Source of the DNA: Phycisphaerae bacterium
Lineage (GTDB): Bacteria > Planctomycetota > Phycisphaerae > UBA1845
Direction of reading: 5' to 3'
Length of the DNA: 64,000 bases
NCBI GenBank assembly: GCA_029260115.1
Contig: JAJDDW010000071.1
Coordinates: 1-64,000 of the forward strand
A program made the position numbers and the translations under genes. Every line of letters begins with the position of its first letter. Position 1 is the first letter of the stretch. This document shows, one piece after another, positions 5,122 through 17,465 of the stretch. The notes below the pieces were generated by a model. It was given only the letters and a program-made list of their open reading frames with translations. It made no database searches and had not been told where the DNA came from.

Positions 5122-6397
5122 ATGGCAAGAAACTGCATTGAGCGATATTTTAGAATCCATTAATACAGGTCTCGATGCGATCAGGCGTGCCCCAATTGTT
5201 AATTTTGAGACTGGTGTCAAATGCTTACGTATACAAGACATTTCTAATTCAAAGCCCTTTTTAAACTGGGGCAATACAGAAGTAAATCAAAAAGACTATG
5301 AAAAATACAAGCTTGTAAAAAATGATATCATCATGGCCAGAACTTGCTCAACTGGTATCAGCCTTCTGATAAAGGAACCGCTGAATGCCGTATTCAATAA
5401 CGGCTTGGCAAGGATTAGATTAAAATTGGACAGGGCATTACCAGAATTCATTGCCTATGTATTCAAATCGAAGGAGTTTGTTGAGTACATTTACGGAATT
5501 TCTGCGGGTACATCTGTTCAGTTAAACATGAGGGTTGGGGATGTTGCTAAATATAAGTTCTTGCTTCCACGATTAAGTACACAAAGTGAAATTGCTCGAA
5601 TCCTAAGAACATTCGACGACAAGATCGAACTCAATCGGCGGATGAATGAGACATTGGAACAGATGGCGGCGGCAACCTTCAAGGCGTGGTTCGTGGACTT
5701 CGAACCCGTCAAAGCCAAAGCGGATGGAGCCAAGAGCTTCCCCTCCATGCCGCAGGAAGTCTTCGATACCCTACCGACCGAATTCACCGACTCTCCCCTC
5801 GGCCCAATTCCCAAGGGGTGGGATGCTGTTGGGTTTGGTGATATTGCTGAGTGCTACGATTCAAAACGAATACCGCTGTCCAAGAGAGAACGATCTCAAC
5901 GCCAAGGGACTTATCCTTACTACGGTGCTGCATCAGTAATGGATTATGTAGACGATTTTCTATTCGACGGCAATTACGTTTTGATGGGCGAGGATGGATC
6001 GGTCATAACTGTCGAGGGCTACCCTGTGCTCCAGTACGTCTGGGGACAATTCTGGGTTAACAATCACGCACATGTATTACAGGGGAAGAATGGCATCTCG
6101 ACTGAACACCTATTACTCAGCCTAAGACAGTCAATCCTTACGCCATTCATCACCGGCGCTGTTCAGCTTAAGCTGAACCAGGGAAACATGAAGCAGATTC
6201 CTTTTGTCTTTCCAACGTCGTCAGTGTCAGCGGCGTTTGTCCGGTCGATTGACCCGCTCTTTGCGAAGTATCGGGCGAATGTTGAAGAATCGAGAACGTT
6301 AACGGCAATTCGAGATGCCTTACTTCCCAAACTTCTCTCGGGCGAGATTCGAGTCGGTGAGACTAAACGCATCGCCGAGGAGGTGGCGTTACAGTGA
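5111..6397 (+). CDS. hsdS: Type I restriction specificity subunit HsdS
   Basis: 428 aa from the ATG at 5111 ([12 protein letters not shown]), which overlaps the end of hsdM. Two target-recognition domains are visible: residues about 1-150, and a second after [11 protein letters not shown], the typical entry sequence of the second domain. Each is followed by a helical spacer ([21 protein letters not shown], and the matching [19 protein letters not shown] at the C terminus). HsdS determines the bipartite DNA target and binds two HsdM. The target sequence cannot be read from the protein. The stretch around 5180-5500 is notably AT-rich compared with the rest of the operon, consistent with exchange of the first recognition domain. 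Confidence 0.93.
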
Positions 6398-7473
6398 AGA
6401 AAGAGGCCCGTCTTCTGTTTGAAAAAGCGTTGGATTCGCTGCTATTGGTGGTTGACCATTTCAACCGACCTTGGGATTGTGGTAGAGCCGACGCCGTGCT
6501 CATTTTCTTCGACCATGCCTTCGAAATGTTACTCAAGGCTGCCATCCTTCATCGGGGAGGACGAATTCGAGAGCGTCGAGCCAAACAAACCATCGGCTTT
6601 GATGCCTGCGTCCGAAAGTCACTTTCTGACGGGGACTTGAAGTTCCTCAGTAAAGAGCAGGCCGTCATTCTTCAAACCATTAACAGTCTTCGTGACGCTG
6701 CTCAGCATCACATCGTTCAGCTTTCTGAGGCTCACTTGTCCATACATGTTATGGCAGGGATGACCTTGTTTAGTGACATTGTCAAAGAAGTATTCGATCA
6801 CGACATCACCGACGATCTGCCTGTGAGGGCTCTAGCAATATCGACGAAGGCACCACTCGACTTGGCTGCTCTCTTTGCAACCGAGGCAGCGGAAGTACGA
6901 AAGCTCTTACAGCCGGGTACTCGTCGCCGCCTGGAGGTGGAAGCTCGGCTGCGTGGACTTGCGATTGTTGAAGGAGCCATGACTGGGGAGCGACTGCAAC
7001 CGACCACCGGAACCCTTAACAAGATAGGCGATGCTCTCTTGGACGGGCGGAGGTGGGATCATGTCTTTCCGGGAGTCGCCTCCATTACGCTTACGAGCGA
7101 CGGACATGGCCCGAGTATCGATTTACGGATCACGAAGAAAGGCGGCACCCCAATCACACTCGTACCTGAAGGAACACCTGGAGCAGCCGTTGTTGCGGTC
7201 AAGCGTGTTGATGAGCTAGGTTTCTATAGCTTGGGGCTGAAGGATCTGGCCAAGACAATTGACCTGTCGCCGCCGAAGACGCTCGCATTCATCAAGGCCG
7301 TCAAACTTCAACAAGACGCAGATTGCTATAAAGAAATCAAGGTTGGACGTACGAAATTCAAACGTTATTCAGAGAAGGCTGTATCCGTCCTGAACGAAGC
7401 CAAGAGCGAAATGAGTCTTGATGAAGTGTGGGTCAAGTACGGTCAAGGAAGTAGGCGTCGAGCTGCTGGGTAG
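6394..7473 (+). CDS. DUF3644-like protein within the hsd operon
   Basis: 359 aa starting at GTG 6394, overlapping the hsdS stop by 4 bp. The N-terminal 140 residues resemble DUF3644: an ALDSLLLVVDHFNRP opening, then DHAFEMLLKAAIL and SLRDAAQHH, the helical core with conserved Arg/His that recalls HEPN-type folds. The C-terminal part (FYSLGLKDLAKTIDLSPPKTL) looks like a winged-helix or nucleic-acid-binding module. DUF3644 genes are often found with restriction systems, but their role is not established; a HEPN-like RNase or anti-phage accessory is one possibility. Position between hsdS and hsdR, with tight overlaps, argues for co-expression. Confidence 0.68.
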   Translation: MKKEARLLFEKALDSLLLVVDHFNRPWDCGRADAVLIFFDHAFEMLLKAAILHRGGRIRERRAKQTIGFDACVRKSLSDGDLKFLSKEQAVILQTINSLRDAAQHHIVQLSEAHLSIHVMAGMTLFSDIVKEVFDHDITDDLPVRALAISTKAPLDLAALFATEAAEVRKLLQPGTRRRLEVEARLRGLAIVEGAMTGERLQPTTGTLNKIGDALLDGRRWDHVFPGVASITLTSDGHGPSIDLRITKKGGTPITLVPEGTPGAAVVAVKRVDELGFYSLGLKDLAKTIDLSPPKTLAFIKAVKLQQDADCYKEIKVGRTKFKRYSEKAVSVLNEAKSEMSLDEVWVKYGQGSRRRAAG

Positions 7474-11006: not shown

Positions 11007-11606
11007 ATGGGAATCAACATCACAACGTATCAGCTGCCGGATGAGGGACAAGACCCAAAGGTCTATGCCGATGCTCTACGAAGCCTAGAGATCTTGGCTA
11101 TGGACTTTGGTCGATCAAAGGGACTAATCTCGTGGATACAGGGGCAGATACTCTTGAGAGCCAGAGAAGCTTGTCTAAGAGGCGGATGGAAAGCCTTTCT
11201 TGCGAGCGTCCATTTGAAACCGGGTACGGCTGGTCATTTGCTCCGCATTGGGAAAGACATTTCAGCGGAGAACAAGAACCTTGAGTACAACGAAATGCTC
11301 GCCATCATCTACCCTAATACTTACGGCAAGGACGCCGTAGAAAAGCGTAAACGTGGTGGTGGTGGCAAACGTACCACGCAAACGGTGGATCAATCCTATG
11401 CCGATCTTGCTTCGATCAAAACCAAGGTCCAAAAAATAGGGGAGCGTAAGTTTCTTGAAAGCAAGCTACCGCTCGATCAAGCGATCCTGAAGTACAATCA
11501 ATCCATTGGCGTTATTGAAGTATGCAGCAAAGAGCTTGCTAAATTAAAAAGCATCCTAGAAAAGCGACAAGCGGGACTCACGATCCATGGAAAGCAAGCG
11601 GCATGA
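11007..11606 (+). CDS. DUF3102-like DNA-associated protein (199 aa)
   Basis: Soluble 199-aa protein. Residues about 45-90 (ILLRAREACLRGGWKAFLA, then a short helix and LLRIGKDI) resemble the DUF3102 pattern: a helix, a Gly-Trp turn with a helix-turn-helix-like element, then a helix. Such proteins occur on plasmids and phages, often near replication or partition genes. A basic glycine-rich linker (KRKRGGGGKRTT) follows, and a C-terminal coiled coil from about residue 140. The gene overlaps the downstream methylase by 4 bp (ATGA), so the two are probably co-translated. The family assignment is tentative. Confidence 0.5.
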   Translation: MGINITTYQLPDEGQDPKVYADALRSLEILAMDFGRSKGLISWIQGQILLRAREACLRGGWKAFLASVHLKPGTAGHLLRIGKDISAENKNLEYNEMLAIIYPNTYGKDAVEKRKRGGGGKRTTQTVDQSYADLASIKTKVQKIGERKFLESKLPLDQAILKYNQSIGVIEVCSKELAKLKSILEKRQAGLTIHGKQAA

Positions 11607-12394
11607 AATGGCTACTCCGTTATTACGGGGCCAAGATGAAGTCGGGGCGAGACATCTTTAGTTTCGCCCCGGCTACATTTTCCCACTACGTTGAACCATT
11701 TTGTGGCTCAGCGGGGATGTTGGCTCATGTACCCACTTCTGTTGATCGTTGGATCAACGATTTGAATCCTGATGTAGTCGCATTCCATCTTGCATTGCGA
11801 GACGATCCTGATTTCCTGGATAGGATATTTGAATTCGCAAAATTACAAACAGCCGAAGAGATACGGATTGCCTTTTATAAAGCGAAATGGGACTGGTTTC
11901 AAACTGGCTGTCCCGTTTCGTACTGGCTTCTCAATCGTTACGCAAAATGTCGAATGGTACGTCGTAGCCGTCCTGATATAGCGAGCTTCGATCATCGCTA
12001 TCTAATTCGTGGTATGCGTTTTCCTTTCACTTGGGAAGAGGCTGAGCAGGCTAGAGCCGTTATGCAGGGTGTACGAATTACCTGCCTTGATTTTAGGGAA
12101 GTACTGGCTAATGCCCCGGCTGACTCATGGGTCTTTGTCGATCCCTGTTACCATGTCAAAGAGCAAATCTATGATAAGGAAATGTCTTTTGATGACCACC
12201 GTGATTTGCGGGATTGTCTAGTGTCATTGCGTGAGCCTTTTCTCCTGACGACGGGAGGATCGGAGTTGTCGTTTCGTCTCTATCAAGGTCGTGGCCTTGA
12301 TATTTATCAGCATCACTACAATAACGTCAATCTGCTAAGAGGCGGCTCCAAGCCCGCTGTCGAGTATTGGATTCGGAATGATCTAAATTCTTAG
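11603..12394 (+). CDS. D12-class adenine-specific DNA methyltransferase (Dam-like)
   Basis: 263 aa. The order of motifs is that of the D12/Dam family: N-terminal WLLRYYGAK, SAM-binding motif I VEPFCGSAGML (about 29-39), NDLNPDVV (about 52-59), and motif IV VFVDPCYHVK. The usual catalytic DPPY reads DPCY here, an uncommon but chemically plausible change because Asp and Tyr are kept. The C-terminal DIYQHHYNN matches the family's late motif. It probably methylates adenine in a short target, protecting or marking the element. It has no partner nuclease next to it, so it behaves as an orphan methylase. Confidence 0.8.
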   Translation: MKWLLRYYGAKMKSGRDIFSFAPATFSHYVEPFCGSAGMLAHVPTSVDRWINDLNPDVVAFHLALRDDPDFLDRIFEFAKLQTAEEIRIAFYKAKWDWFQTGCPVSYWLLNRYAKCRMVRRSRPDIASFDHRYLIRGMRFPFTWEEAEQARAVMQGVRITCLDFREVLANAPADSWVFVDPCYHVKEQIYDKEMSFDDHRDLRDCLVSLREPFLLTTGGSELSFRLYQGRGLDIYQHHYNNVNLLRGGSKPAVEYWIRNDLNS

Positions 12395-12727: not shown

Positions 12728-14530
12728 CTAATTTTTCATAACTTGTTTCATTTTTTCGAGCTGTTCATCGAATGTTAGCGTTGTATCCGTCGTTTTGATC
12801 GCTTCATGCCAATGAAGGTGCGGAGAGTCATCACTGTACAAGGACTTTTTCCTCTTTTCTGTCTTGTTCGTTAGCTTACCCCTTGCAGGTGTACAGCTAA
12901 CACTTACGAGAGAGAGAGGGGAGAGAGAATTAGACCGGGCTATGCACGGGCTTAACTGTTGTTTTAATCTTAGTAAGCCATACTGCCTACATTTAGAGTC
13001 AGTACGATCGTAGTTATCTAAAGTATGAAGTAACTTAGCATCCCTAAGCAGGTGTTGCATTTTATCCCAAGTTCTTTTTCCGCCAAAAATAGAGTGTGCG
13101 AGCTTATAATAAATACGCCCACTATACTTCATCATATAATCGTAGAACTTCCCGAGCATAGTCAATTTCTTGTAAGAAAAACCACATAACTCTTTAGCTT
13201 TTCGCAGAAAATAAGAACGGTCAATTTTCGCTGAAGTAGCAAAACGCTTTTTATCTTGCTTTCCTCTCTGGTTTTCTGTTCGGTTCTTGGATTTTGACTT
13301 GGTAGGATCGAAAAATTCAGGATTAAAGAAACCCGTCATAATACGACGTGCAAAATCTGCCCGCATGGTCGAGCTATGACAAGTAGTGGAGTCATACTTA
13401 GCCGTAGCAAGTATATAATCGTCAAACTCAGCAATAGCTAGCTCCAGTTTTGATTTATCTCCACCATATTTCCACGTCAGACGTGATGGTATTTTTGCAA
13501 AACGGACATAACGATCATAAGTGTTTTTAATCTTGTTCATTTCAGCGATGAACTTAGGATTACTATCAAGCCCTATACTGAGCATAGACTTTGATTTAGG
13601 CTTAGACGCTGTTACGGCTACCGCTGTTGCATCTTGTGCCTCTTGTTTGGCTACCCACTCAAGTGCAGGTACAAACAGAGCGTCTACGTCTACAGGCGTA
13701 GCTTTGATCCACTCATAATTAAATGTATTGACTACATCTCGTGGATGCTCATCGTCGTATTCGAACTTGGTTTTAAGGGTAAGAGGATTACAGACTTCTA
13801 CCCACCGTTGAGGTAGTCTGATTAGTCTGTTGCGTTCGTCTACTGAAGTTTCGTCGTGTATGTCGTAGTAGGTCTTAAATGCAGGTACTAACTTCTCACG
13901 AAGAGTTTTCACTTTAATGGGACGATTAAATTTTATCCAAGCATATAGCCCCTGTACATGCTCGCCTCTGAAAATGCCTTCAAGTAGTATGTTACCGGGG
14001 CTAGTAGTCCAAACTATATCAAAGCTTAGTTCTTCCGCTAACTCGATGAGGTTTTTGACTTTCGTAAAAAACTCATGATCTGCTTGTTGTCGTTCTTGCG
14101 GTGTATCGTGGTTATCATACCGATGACGGTCGCAATCAATTTGAAACCCTTGAATGAAACTCTCATCGGGATATGTGGCTAGCAACCAATGCTTATCGTG
14201 TTTGTGCCATTCTTTTCGGCTTATATTGGCTAAGTAGCTACCTCTTACTTTTCCTTTTTTGTCATGGTAAGCTAACTTTTCTAGCGGGACTCTTCGCCCG
14301 TTGTTCATCCGAAAACCGTCTTCGATTGTTATGTTTTTGTGGCGCTTGATGGTTCTAGGGTATGGGCGCGGAAACAGCATAAGTTCTTTTGCAAAGCGAG
14401 TGCGATGTGCAGGCGTTATCCATGACGAAACAAAATCCATTTCAGCGGGGGGACGGTCTGCAAAGACTGGTTCTTCCCACGGTCCTGTGCCAATCGTTTC
14501 TAAAATTTTGTCGTTGTTACCGTTTATCAT
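12728..14530 (-). CDS. Putative primase-polymerase-like replication protein (600 aa)
   Basis: Large soluble protein. Between residues 120 and 245 there are three blocks in the order expected for archaeo-eukaryotic-type primases of mobile elements: QGFQIDCDRHRYDN (about 128-140, a D-x-D metal motif), a strand and turn ending TTSPGN followed by GLYAWIKF (about 175-201), and NRLIRLPQRW (about 234-243). The C-terminal half is basic and may bind DNA. Together with an upstream attenuator-like leader this suggests the element's replication-initiation gene. No helicase Walker motif is visible. The start is ATG at 14530 with a weak AGGGA ribosome-binding site. The primase call is inference from motif spacing; it could be another nucleic-acid enzyme. 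Confidence 0.5.
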   Translation of the reverse strand: MINGNNDKILETIGTGPWEEPVFADRPPAEMDFVSSWITPAHRTRFAKELMLFPRPYPRTIKRHKNITIEDGFRMNNGRRVPLEKLAYHDKKGKVRGSYLANISRKEWHKHDKHWLLATYPDESFIQGFQIDCDRHRYDNHDTPQERQQADHEFFTKVKNLIELAEELSFDIVWTTSPGNILLEGIFRGEHVQGLYAWIKFNRPIKVKTLREKLVPAFKTYYDIHDETSVDERNRLIRLPQRWVEVCNPLTLKTKFEYDDEHPRDVVNTFNYEWIKATPVDVDALFVPALEWVAKQEAQDATAVAVTASKPKSKSMLSIGLDSNPKFIAEMNKIKNTYDRYVRFAKIPSRLTWKYGGDKSKLELAIAEFDDYILATAKYDSTTCHSSTMRADFARRIMTGFFNPEFFDPTKSKSKNRTENQRGKQDKKRFATSAKIDRSYFLRKAKELCGFSYKKLTMLGKFYDYMMKYSGRIYYKLAHSIFGGKRTWDKMQHLLRDAKLLHTLDNYDRTDSKCRQYGLLRLKQQLSPCIARSNSLSPLSLVSVSCTPARGKLTNKTEKRKKSLYSDDSPHLHWHEAIKTTDTTLTFDEQLEKMKQVMKN

Positions 14531-14550
14531 TCGTCCCTATGAACAAAAAA

Positions 14551-14590
14551 AAGCCCCGGCAGCGTTGGGACAACGGCAACATCGGGGCTT
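14551..14590 (-). terminator. Intrinsic terminator in the leader of the primase-like gene
   Basis: On the minus strand AAGCCCCG pairs with CGGGGCTT (8 bp, GC-rich), enclosing a 24-nt loop with an inner GTTG/CAAC stem. It is followed at once by eight T residues and then, 14 nt later, by the ATG of the 600-aa gene. A terminator directly before a start codon acts as an attenuator: transcription reaches the gene only when the hairpin is prevented from forming. Confidence 0.75.
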
Positions 14591-14644
14591 AAAGTTCCGC
14601 CTAAATGACGGAGCGAAGTCGGTAAATTTATAGTGCTGTCCTCG

Positions 14645-14699
14645 CTGCAAAATCCGACTTCGCAGCTTACAGGTATATTATACAATTACTATTTTGCAG
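14645..14699 (-). promoter_or_regulatory. Promoter and inverted repeat upstream of the attenuator
   Basis: TATAAT (minus strand, 14682-14677) is a perfect -10 box that would start a leader of about 140 nt ending at the primase-like gene. No good -35 is seen. A perfect 9-bp inverted repeat, CTGCAAAAT at 14645-14653 and ATTTTGCAG at 14691-14699, brackets the -10 and is a candidate operator. Confidence 0.5.
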
Positions 14700-15036
14700 A
14701 ATCCTCTTTTTGCGAAAATATATTTTGATCATCGAATGTGATCAAATCCCGAGACCTCAATGTAGTCCACCATCGAGGTACGAGAACGCTCTACTCTCTG
14801 AACACCAAATCAATTCAGTGTCCCCACGAACGACCTTGGAAACCGTGAAAAACGTAGTGTGAGTCGATGCAAGTTCCATTTTGACGGCGAATAAACTACG
14901 CCGTTTTTGAAATTTCAGTCTATCCGAAATCAGTGTCAAAAAAACTTGCAATCTGTCCAAGATTTGTCTTGGCCTTGTCCAGTGATTGCGCTAGGGTGTG
15001 ACTTGCGACGTGGTGACGGACGAATTGAGGTAGAAC

Positions 15037-15984
15037 ATGATTCCATCGATAGATCACTGGTTAGGACAAGAGAATGCCATTCGGCGTTTCAAGGTTGCAC
15101 TCGAAGCGAGTTGGAGTGATGGCACTCGGCTTCCTCACATGCTGTTTACGGGGCCTCCAGGCGTTGGCAAGACGTTGCTTGGCCAACTCGCCGCCAGAGA
15201 AATCGGGGGGCATGCAGAAGAACGAATTGCCCAAGTTCTGAATACGCCGGGGACGCTTAATGGCTTCCTAATGGCAGGAAAAGACAAGGGAGTCTTGTTC
15301 ATCGACGAGATACACGAATTACTGCCAACCTTGCAAGTACGCCTGTACAAAACGATGGAAGAACAGCAGCTTTCGCTCCAGACGAATTCCAACAAGACCG
15401 TCACGATGCCGCTGAAGAACTTCACGCTGGTGGGAGCAACAACCGATGAATTCCGCATTCTTGCTCCATTGCGTGATAGATTCAAAGTTGTTTTGCCTTT
15501 CACTACATACGATGTCGAGTCACTTGCTCGCATCACAATTCAACGGGCTAAGCATAGTTCTATAGATATAGAACCAGCGATTGGGCTTGAAATAGCAAGG
15601 CGATCCAAAGGCACTCCAAGGCTTGCGATACGGCTACTTGAATCCTGCCACCGTTACGCTCGCAGTATCGGCGACGATCGGGTCACGATGAAGCACTTCA
15701 TGGCTACGGTTGAATTGGATGGTCTCGATGCACTCGGTCTCGGATCTGACGAGCAACGATACCTTCAAGCGCTCGCTAGCCGTCACGGCAAACCCATGCG
15801 CCTGTTTGACCTGGAGGCAAACGTCGGCGTCCATCGTCGAACAATTCAAGATGTCATCGAGCCATTCTTGATCCGAAGCGGACTGGTAGAACGCAATACA
15901 CAAGGTCGAATTTTAACCGAGACTGGCATGCGGCATCTTGGCTTGCTGCCGGATCTCGAAACCGTGAGTGAGGTCACATCATGA
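15037..15984 (+). CDS. RuvB-like Holliday-junction branch-migration ATPase
   Basis: 315 aa, with the full RuvB architecture: Walker A GPPGVGKT (39-46), Walker B VLFIDEIHE (86-94), sensor I TLVGATT (130-136), arginine-finger region LRDRF (145-149), sensor II GTPRLA, and a C-terminal winged helix (residues about 235-305). RuvB is a hexameric motor that moves Holliday junctions with RuvA. No RuvA or RuvC gene is near. Divergence from chromosomal RuvB (for example EFRILAPLRDRF in place of the usual GLLTSPLRDRF-type segment) and its location on the element suggest a dedicated motor for element replication or recombination. GAGG precedes the ATG. Confidence 0.85.
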   Translation: MIPSIDHWLGQENAIRRFKVALEASWSDGTRLPHMLFTGPPGVGKTLLGQLAAREIGGHAEERIAQVLNTPGTLNGFLMAGKDKGVLFIDEIHELLPTLQVRLYKTMEEQQLSLQTNSNKTVTMPLKNFTLVGATTDEFRILAPLRDRFKVVLPFTTYDVESLARITIQRAKHSSIDIEPAIGLEIARRSKGTPRLAIRLLESCHRYARSIGDDRVTMKHFMATVELDGLDALGLGSDEQRYLQALASRHGKPMRLFDLEANVGVHRRTIQDVIEPFLIRSGLVERNTQGRILTETGMRHLGLLPDLETVSEVTS

Positions 15985-16487
15985 GTAAGCCAGATGTGTT
16001 GAAAGAGGTCGTAACTGTCAGTGAAATGGCACGCATGTGCGGTCTGTCTAGGGCGAGATATTATCAACTGGCCAAAGAAGGCATCTTTCCTACGCCGTCA
16101 CGCAACCCGCAAACTGGTCGCCCGTACTACGACCGTAAGCAGCAAGAGCTCTGCCTGTTGATTCGTCGGACGAACAAGGGTGCCAATGGTCGAGTCGTAC
16201 TCTTTTATGGTCGCCGTCTCGAAACTGTTCCGAGGCTTCCATCTAAGCGACAGCGAGTCATTAGGAAGAACCCGAATGTTACCCCTGTCGGTATTTCACC
16301 CGTATTGGTGGAACTTCGGAGTGGGCTGACTCAGCTTGGAATGTCAGACGTCTCGATGGATCAGATCCGTAATGCATTGGCGACGGCGTTGCCAGACGGA
16401 CTCGATGGACGGGATGAAGGAGAGGTTTTGCAGGCTGTATTCACCCAACTGGGATGTCGGAATTCAGATGATAACGTTAGCGGATAA
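15981..16487 (+). CDS. Helix-turn-helix DNA-binding protein (168 aa)
   Basis: The ATG overlaps the RuvB-like stop by 4 bp (ATGA), so the two genes are translationally coupled. Residues about 10-45 form a MerR/excisionase-type helix-turn-helix: VTVSEMARMCGLSRARYYQL, a wing, then TGRPYYD. The remainder is basic, with a C-terminal helical region. Likely a regulator or recombination directionality factor working with the neighbouring recombinase at 16593. An inverted repeat that overlaps this gene's stop codon and recurs before the recombinase is a plausible binding site. Confidence 0.65.
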   Translation: MSKPDVLKEVVTVSEMARMCGLSRARYYQLAKEGIFPTPSRNPQTGRPYYDRKQQELCLLIRRTNKGANGRVVLFYGRRLETVPRLPSKRQRVIRKNPNVTPVGISPVLVELRSGLTQLGMSDVSMDQIRNALATALPDGLDGRDEGEVLQAVFTQLGCRNSDDNVSG

Positions 16488-16574
16488 TTATCATTATCTG
16501 CTCAATCGAAGCATGAACCTGTCTACTATCTGTCTTATTTCTGTTGAGAAGGCGTCAAATATTCAGCGGATAAT
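16479..16574 (+). promoter_or_regulatory. Repeated AGCGGATAAT operator-like sites
   Basis: AGCGGATAAT (16479-16488) and ATTATCTGCT (16493-16502) form a near-perfect 10-bp inverted repeat with a 4-bp centre. AGCGGATAAT recurs at 16565-16574, 18 bp before the recombinase start. Three half-sites in 96 bp upstream of the gene suggest regulation, possibly by the HTH protein encoded just before. Confidence 0.5.
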
Positions 16575-16592
16575 GATTTTGAAGGAATAACA

Positions 16593-17465
16593 ATGAATGA
16601 TTTACCAACATGTGTTGATGATTTTATTTCAGCGAATGATTTCAGTAGTCATACCGTCAAAGCTATCAAAGCTGACATTCGAAAATTCATCACATGGTTT
16701 TCAACTGCTAACGGTGAGCGATTCGACCCAACCCGAGTGACTGTCCGAGACGTGGTCGATTTCAGGGAGCACTTGTCCCGTGTGCGACGGCAAGCGGTAT
16801 CGACGACCAACCGAGCTTTGATTTCTGTACGGAGCTACATGGAGCATCTGCTAAAGTCTGGAGCCCTTCCAACAAATCCAGCCAAGTCCGTAAAAGAGAT
16901 ACGACGGATGCCGACTGTACCGAAGGGACTAACTCCGCCACAAGTACGCAAAATTTTGCGGGAAATTGAAATCCGCCAAGATCGTAAAGCTGCTGCCATC
17001 ATAGGCGTCATGCTGTTCGGTGGACTGCGAGCATCCGAAGTCGTAGGTCTGGAAATTGATGATGTAACCATCGCCCCGAGATCCGGGCAACTTGTATGTC
17101 GTCATGGAAAAGGTAACAAGCAACGCATCATACCTCTGTCGCACGAGGCTCGACGGCTGTTACAGGAATACTTAGAAACCCGTCCACTTTGCGACTCGGA
17201 CGCTGTTTTCATTGGTGAGCGTGGAGCCCTATCGTACCACGGATTGCGGGCGATCTGCTCGAAGTATGCTGCAATCAGTGGCGTCAAGTTCACGGCACAT
17301 TCCCTTAGGCATAGCTTCGCTCATCGTTTCCTGAGTTCTACGGAAAACGACATCGTCTCCCTCGCTCAAATACTTGGTCACGAGAACCTGAATACGACCT
17401 CAATGTACACCAAACGGCGGCAAGAGGAGCTACAACAGAAGATTGATGGTTTGCGGTATGAGTAA
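16593..17465 (+). CDS. Tyrosine recombinase, XerC/XerD type
   Basis: 290 aa, the usual length for this family. The N-terminal SAM-like core-binding domain covers residues 5-95. The catalytic domain has every active-site residue: R146 (GGLRASEV), a beta-hairpin lysine near GKGNKQR (about 173-177), H236 and R239 (HSLRHSFAH), H263 (LGHENLNTTSMYTK) and nucleophile Y272. The start ATG is preceded by AAGGA. It is complete and should be active, acting on dimer resolution, excision or a secondary site. A 63-aa membrane protein follows at once, an arrangement that recurs at the element's right end. Confidence 0.92.
   Translation: MNDLPTCVDDFISANDFSSHTVKAIKADIRKFITWFSTANGERFDPTRVTVRDVVDFREHLSRVRRQAVSTTNRALISVRSYMEHLLKSGALPTNPAKSVKEIRRMPTVPKGLTPPQVRKILREIEIRQDRKAAAIIGVMLFGGLRASEVVGLEIDDVTIAPRSGQLVCRHGKGNKQRIIPLSHEARRLLQEYLETRPLCDSDAVFIGERGALSYHGLRAICSKYAAISGVKFTAHSLRHSFAHRFLSSTENDIVSLAQILGHENLNTTSMYTKRRQEELQQKIDGLRYE

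Follow-up and report, generated by a model that had tools for sequence, protein, structure and literature searches.

In the Inc18 plasmids pIP501 and pAMbeta1, transcription of the replication gene (repR/repE) passes a poly-T terminator in the leader upstream of rep. In pIP501 this terminator lies just 5' of rep and attenuation is driven by an antisense RNA (PMC5703833, PMC4981023). A repressor operator is located at the promoter (PMC5703833, PMC5862659), and the RepE/RepS proteins form one family of the AEP superfamily (PMC5862659); we found that the Rep of pIP501/pAMbeta1 also carries the PriCT_1 domain. In the pT181 repC leader, too, a terminator-like stem-loop directly precedes the rep start codon, and a pre-emptor is present (PMC5703833); there the RBS lies inside the stem and antisense RNA drives attenuation, but RepC is a rolling-circle initiator of the Rep_trans type, unrelated to the protein discussed below. 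A third system, pRN1, combines an AEP replication protein with a stem-loop adjoining its gene, proposed as the origin of this AEP replicon (PMC4234260); this stem-loop is on the downstream side of the gene and plays no part in termination, whereas the hairpin described here lies upstream.

The locus analyzed here belongs to a chromosomal element in Phycisphaerae and lies in a stretch of 64,000 nt (hereafter "the window", meaning the whole stretch). To our knowledge, replication control of the mobile elements of Planctomycetota is essentially unstudied. The gene of interest (positions 12728–14530, minus strand) encodes a replication-type protein of 600 aa with the AEP-like motifs IDCDRH, GLYAWIK and ERNRLIRLP. 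It has no match in Pfam, PHROGs or NCBIfam, its family lies outside the Pfam models PF22548 and PF16793, and single-sequence searches for close relatives retrieved none from genome contigs, viral contigs, phages, plasmids and a 392-genome sample of the phylum. An order-level search identified relatives at 23–32% identity in five genomes, plus fragments, and judged by its alignment the protein is a member of a small Phycisphaerae family with AEP-like motifs. D132-x-D134, TSPG...GxYAWIK and RNxRLPGQ are invariant in the alignment of relatives. Within the general AEP scheme hhhDhD / sx(H,Q,Y) / hD (PMC5862659), D132 and D134, invariant in six relatives, agree with motif I (hhhDhD/E) and align, in a weak profile alignment, with FFIDFDIH, motif I of pAMbeta1 RepE. 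The region of motifs II and III is represented by the conserved G(L/R)YAWIK and WDxRxRNxRLPGQ, and via these motifs another weak profile alignment connects the family with a RepB_primase protein (locus L036, see below). An AlphaFold model built from six sequences is of low confidence (mean pLDDT 49) and gave no PDB match at E < 0.001. The earlier suggestion, made from the letters of this DNA without database searches (the sequence-only reading), that the gene is primase-polymerase-like is plausible by motif (D132-x-D134, GxYAWIK, RNxRLPGQ), and the product is probably an AEP-like replication protein. An alternative start at the internal Met31 (codon at 14440) fits the N-termini of the relatives and has no Shine-Dalgarno sequence; with this start the terminator would be 104 nt upstream.

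Direct reading of the minus strand confirmed both the coordinates and the 14-nt spacing given in the sequence-only reading. The hairpin at 14551–14590 (minus strand, about -19 kcal/mol) has a GC-rich base stem formed by AAGCCCCG (14590–14583) and CGGGGCTT (14558–14551), with further inner pairs, and runs into a tract of eight U residues (14552 to 14545 in RNA order), from the last of which it is 14 nt to the A of the ATG (14530–14528). A stable GC stem directly before a U tract is the hallmark of an intrinsic (Rho-independent) terminator. A generic terminator scan overlooked this hairpin because its loop exceeds 8 nt. With a fixed rule requiring ≥7 bp, ≥4 GC pairs and ≥7 T among 8 positions, four matches were found in the 64-kb window, compared with 0.78 per 64 kb in dinucleotide-shuffled windows; the hairpin at 14551–14590 is the best of them, with the most GC pairs and the full T8, and the remaining three lie within genes. 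The GC-rich stem and eight U residues that had been noticed before the start codon are thus the strongest terminator in the window, and when the intergenic region (506 nt) is shuffled, the same rule finds a terminator in 1.0% of the copies.

Two candidate promoters precede the terminator on the minus strand: TATAAT at 14682–14677, a candidate -10 element whose -35 is poor (P-value 0.33), and, further upstream, TTGATC-17-TATATT (14717–14745), found by a promoter scan. No -10-like site was seen by inspection in the 14 nt between the terminator and the ATG, and we rejected leaderless transcription from a promoter behind the hairpin on this ground; in one relative (L061) TATAAT adjoins the ATG. 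Since both candidate promoters lie upstream and none was seen between terminator and ATG, all rep transcripts would have to read through the terminator, as far as the sequence tells. Nor can the terminator be the 3' end of a co-directional gene, because the upstream neighbor (from 15037, plus strand) is divergent. This neighbor opens a module of genes for RuvB-like and AlpA-like proteins and a tyrosine recombinase (15037–17465, plus strand). In loci that share this module with the window, no conserved DNA precedes ruvB and a homologous rep gene is missing from that place; alignment of the leader via these relatives is therefore impossible. On the other side of the 600-aa gene lies a D12 (Dam-type) adenine methyltransferase gene (11603–12394, plus strand); D12 genes also occur beside the relatives of the 600-aa gene in loci L059 and L062 and beside an AEP gene in L033. 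Between the divergent promoters, overlapping TTGATC-17-TATATT, we found an operator-like perfect palindrome with 8-bp arms, TTTGATCA-N7-TGATCAAA (14724–14746), by a pattern derived from the sequence itself; it is absent from the other fetched loci except copies of the same stretch. By analogy with CopR in pIP501, its position suggests an additional repressor; no Cop-type (XRE) gene was recognized in the scanned neighborhood.

The same arrangement recurs before other AEP-type genes. In L062, which encodes a relative (26% identical) of the 600-aa protein, TATAAT and a 9-bp hairpin are followed by a T7 terminator of -19.4 kcal/mol with the stem CTCCAGTCC/GGACTGGAG; its T run begins 22 nt before a GTG start. 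This terminator was spotted by eye before a strict scan (≥8 bp, ≥5 GC pairs and ≥7 T among 8 positions) was applied to 446 kb, comprising the window and 24 loci, most of them chosen for the RuvB/AlpA/recombinase module or for a rep relative. The scan returned six terminators. Four of them stand a short distance ahead of start codons, each time of an AEP-type gene: the window gene, that of L062 and two that were new from the scan, L033 (position 6833), whose product matches AEP-TOTE (PF22548, 1.8e-10), and L036 (position 1603), whose product matches RepB_primase (PF16793, 8.9e-8) and has a DnaG zinc ribbon. Genes with these two domains, TOTE-AEP and RepB_primase, are found in mobile elements and belong to the AEP superfamily; the members in L033 and L036 share the terminator position with the window gene. 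The distance from the beginning of the T run to the start codon is 22 nt in the window, 22 in L062, 29 in L033 and 23 in L036. Applied to the pAMbeta1 repE leader region as a positive control, the scan also detects a terminator (T7). The enrichment among AEP genes has a Fisher P-value of 4.6e-7 against an estimated ~240 other genes (partly post hoc, with crude gene calls), 4e-4 if all 46 AEP genes examined are counted (with the same reservations), and 5e-4, again on crude gene calls, if only the two loci not previously seen, L033 and L036, are used. We regard the enrichment as strong but not conclusive. A layout of the attenuation type (promoter, hairpin, terminator, start) had been proposed for the window leader alone; it is supported here and recurs before three further AEP-type genes. 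It is no general rule that AEP genes have terminators, as none of ~38 further PF16793 or PF22548 matches in the class has one directly ahead of the start codon. In this GC-rich DNA strong hairpins precede the start codons of 50 of 311 genes, so that a hairpin by itself is uninformative as a criterion; only the combination of hairpin and T tract discriminates. In L062, L033 and L036 a co-directional upstream gene ends 190–340 nt before, and these terminators might serve that gene, which is excluded for the window by its divergent neighbor.

The four leaders differ completely in sequence, without any conservation among them, and the families of L036 and L033 offered no close relatives for covariation analysis except one degenerate fragment. 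Among the relatives of the window gene itself, L058, L059 and L060 have hairpins without a U tract, and L061 has a leaderless-looking start. Large hairpins of this kind before the genes of several relatives could mean that the structure acts as DNA, as a stem-loop origin or priming site for the AEP protein with an incidental U tract. The stem-loop of pRN1 is a precedent (PMC4234260), though it lies downstream of the gene, and outer stems around the terminator were detected in L062, L033 and L036 (P-values 0.014–0.028). However, the outer stem of the window is not significant (P-value 0.23), iterons were looked for and none was found, and four independent stems with T-rich tracts, in the coding direction and just ahead of the start codon, are required for a terminator rather than for an origin, which makes this explanation improbable. 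Two further features of the relatives were observed. L058 (6289–6325) and L060 (8815–8845) share a conserved hairpin before the AEP gene, CCCCTCCGGTG/CACCGTGGGG, with a Shine-Dalgarno sequence (GGGGGGAG) in its 3' arm, and L058 has GTC where a GTG start is expected. L059 (6159–11094) and L062 (4026–9907), two relatives with less than 30% identity, have a common order of methyltransferase(s), Dam, a P-loop-like protein, leader and AEP gene; the P-loop-like protein contains GGLGKS and has no Pfam match.

Upstream of the terminator the window leader can form further hairpins. Hairpin B (14613–14663, minus strand) is a 10-bp perfect stem, GCGAAGTCGG/CCGACTTCGC, with arms at 14654–14663 and 14613–14622 (P-value 0.002 against shuffles), and is mutually exclusive with hairpin A (14644–14666, minus strand), a local 10-bp stem that would be the first to form during transcription; a small hairpin C (TCCGTC/GGCGGA) lies at 14596–14612 (minus strand). 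The promoter TATAAT and the upstream hairpin of the sequence-only reading were thus both recovered, the latter as this 10-bp inverted repeat. We followed the folding path by ensemble folding of transcripts of increasing length. Hairpin A dominates at 60 nt (0.96) and is replaced by hairpin B at 70 nt (0.98); at 108 nt hairpin A is transiently back, together with a 7-bp pairing (0.76) between GGACAGC (14635–14641, minus strand) and GTTGTCC (14574–14568, terminator 5' half), and in the final fold the terminator (0.96) and hairpin B (0.99) prevail. The GGACAGC:GTTGTCC pairing has, in these models, the geometry of a pre-emptor, the element known from pT181, and two exclusive hairpins with a 7-bp pre-emptor make an RNA switch possible. 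An anti-terminator conformation, for which the sequence-only reading had suggested looking, is possible in that a pre-emptor is available; in energy, however, the terminator-free fold does not surpass chance (P-value 0.125). By default the leader is predicted to adopt the terminated fold. With the terminator at 0.96 and the terminator-free fold at that P-value, default termination with limited read-through is the best-supported reading, and a regulated switch is possible.

The dominance of the terminated fold, the lack of a visible conserved switch and the wholly different leader sequences would also suit a fixed leaky terminator, which receives no signal and divides transcription by a constant so that a costly protein stays low. 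A bare terminator has no need of upstream hairpins, though, and the long ones of the window, L062 and L036 are beyond chance expectation (P-values 0.002–0.006); we consider a fixed leak possible but rather unlikely. The outer stems of L036, L062 and L033, but not that of the window, cover the ribosome-binding region, hinting at a translational layer in these three predicted folds. Such stems, and the fact that the whole window leader folds more stably than its shuffled copies (z = -2.9), would also be expected if the terminated leader were itself a small RNA, or a 5' structure acting in mRNA stability and translation with the U tract as a ribosomal S1 site, rather than a device for gene control. 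The leader has no match in Rfam and no second copy in the genome, and the missing conservation among the four leaders also speaks against such a function, to which we give as little credence as to a DNA origin.

Taken with the four start-proximal terminators of the 446 kb, which all precede AEP-type genes and support the attenuation reading, these data lead us to favor, with some reserve, the view that the leader of the AEP-type gene contains a true intrinsic terminator, made up of the hairpin and U8 tract, which acts as a transcription attenuator. We infer termination in vivo and a regulated read-through fraction. Transcription would start at the promoter or promoters within 14677–14745, most polymerases would halt at about 14545, and the 600-aa gene would be expressed only from the read-through fraction, by which the replication protein would be kept scarce. 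In the possible switch, hairpin A with the pre-emptor would correspond to read-through and hairpin B to termination, and it could be tipped by a repressor or the Rep protein, by an antisense RNA, by pausing, or by nothing at all (a fixed leak). Should the leader prove to be an attenuator, premature termination ahead of AEP replication genes would extend beyond Gram-positive plasmids and across different AEP families; it would then be a general way of limiting the supply of primase-type initiators, and would offer a direct entry point into the copy control of these elements.

Control by an antisense RNA, as in pT181 and pIP501 proper, was not borne out. Here a counter-transcribed RNA would bind the leader, cause the terminator to form and so set the copy number. 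The layout is identical in kind, hairpins A and B and the candidate pre-emptor are available, the operator-like palindrome would parallel the CopR site, and a weak plus-strand promoter, ATGACG-18-TATAGT (14605–14634), points the right way. This best antisense promoter of the window leader has, however, a P-value of 0.12 against shuffles, and those of the other three leaders are at chance too (0.83, 0.50 and 0.32); moreover, the plus strand lacks a strong terminator at which an antisense RNA could end, the terminator is already the default fold without one, and no Cop-type gene was identified beside the leader. We therefore consider antisense control improbable. The comparison with pIP501 is nevertheless closer than the sequence-only reading knew, as the attenuated Rep of that system is itself an AEP protein. 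The window leader differs from Inc18 in its length (about 140 nt, against about 320) and in a Rep family without a Pfam match. It would appear to work like an attenuator of the Inc18/pT181 type, while membership in the antisense class fails on the antisense promoter, the one defining feature tested; the layout is known in kind and new as a variant. It is conceivable, though we hold it only tentatively, that AEP replication genes of unrelated families in mobile elements of Phycisphaerae acquired a default-on start-proximal terminator independently, or inherited it as an exchangeable leader, and that it is relieved by a factor other than antisense RNA, for instance a leader-binding replication protein or another element-encoded factor.

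Relatives of the L036 protein are also encoded on plasmids, including Natranaerobius pNTHE01 and Selenomonas pSRC5. In pNTHE01 (L125, 2410–2468) TATAAT, a hairpin with a Shine-Dalgarno sequence in its 3' arm and then T6 precede the AEP-like gene, whose TTG start follows after 11 nt, and in pSRC5 a terminator lies 121 nt before the gene; plasmids of Gloeocapsa, Bacillus licheniformis and Staphylococcus equorum have no terminator before the L036-related gene.

The RuvB-like/AlpA-like/tyrosine recombinase module of the window recurs in Phycisphaerae (L030–L046), and the AlpA-like protein is present in 19 of 298 genomes of the class. Some of these loci have differing AEP genes and Dam-type methyltransferases nearby, and the module may represent a type of element so far undescribed. 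A near-identical hairpin with a T tract, GGCTGTATGGTT...ACAGCC, was found in two different genomes (L038, 4505–4535; L041, 13877) and may represent a repeated element, either mobile or a terminator. Elsewhere in the window, the hsdS and hsdR genes of a type I restriction system flank a DUF3644 gene (6394–7473).
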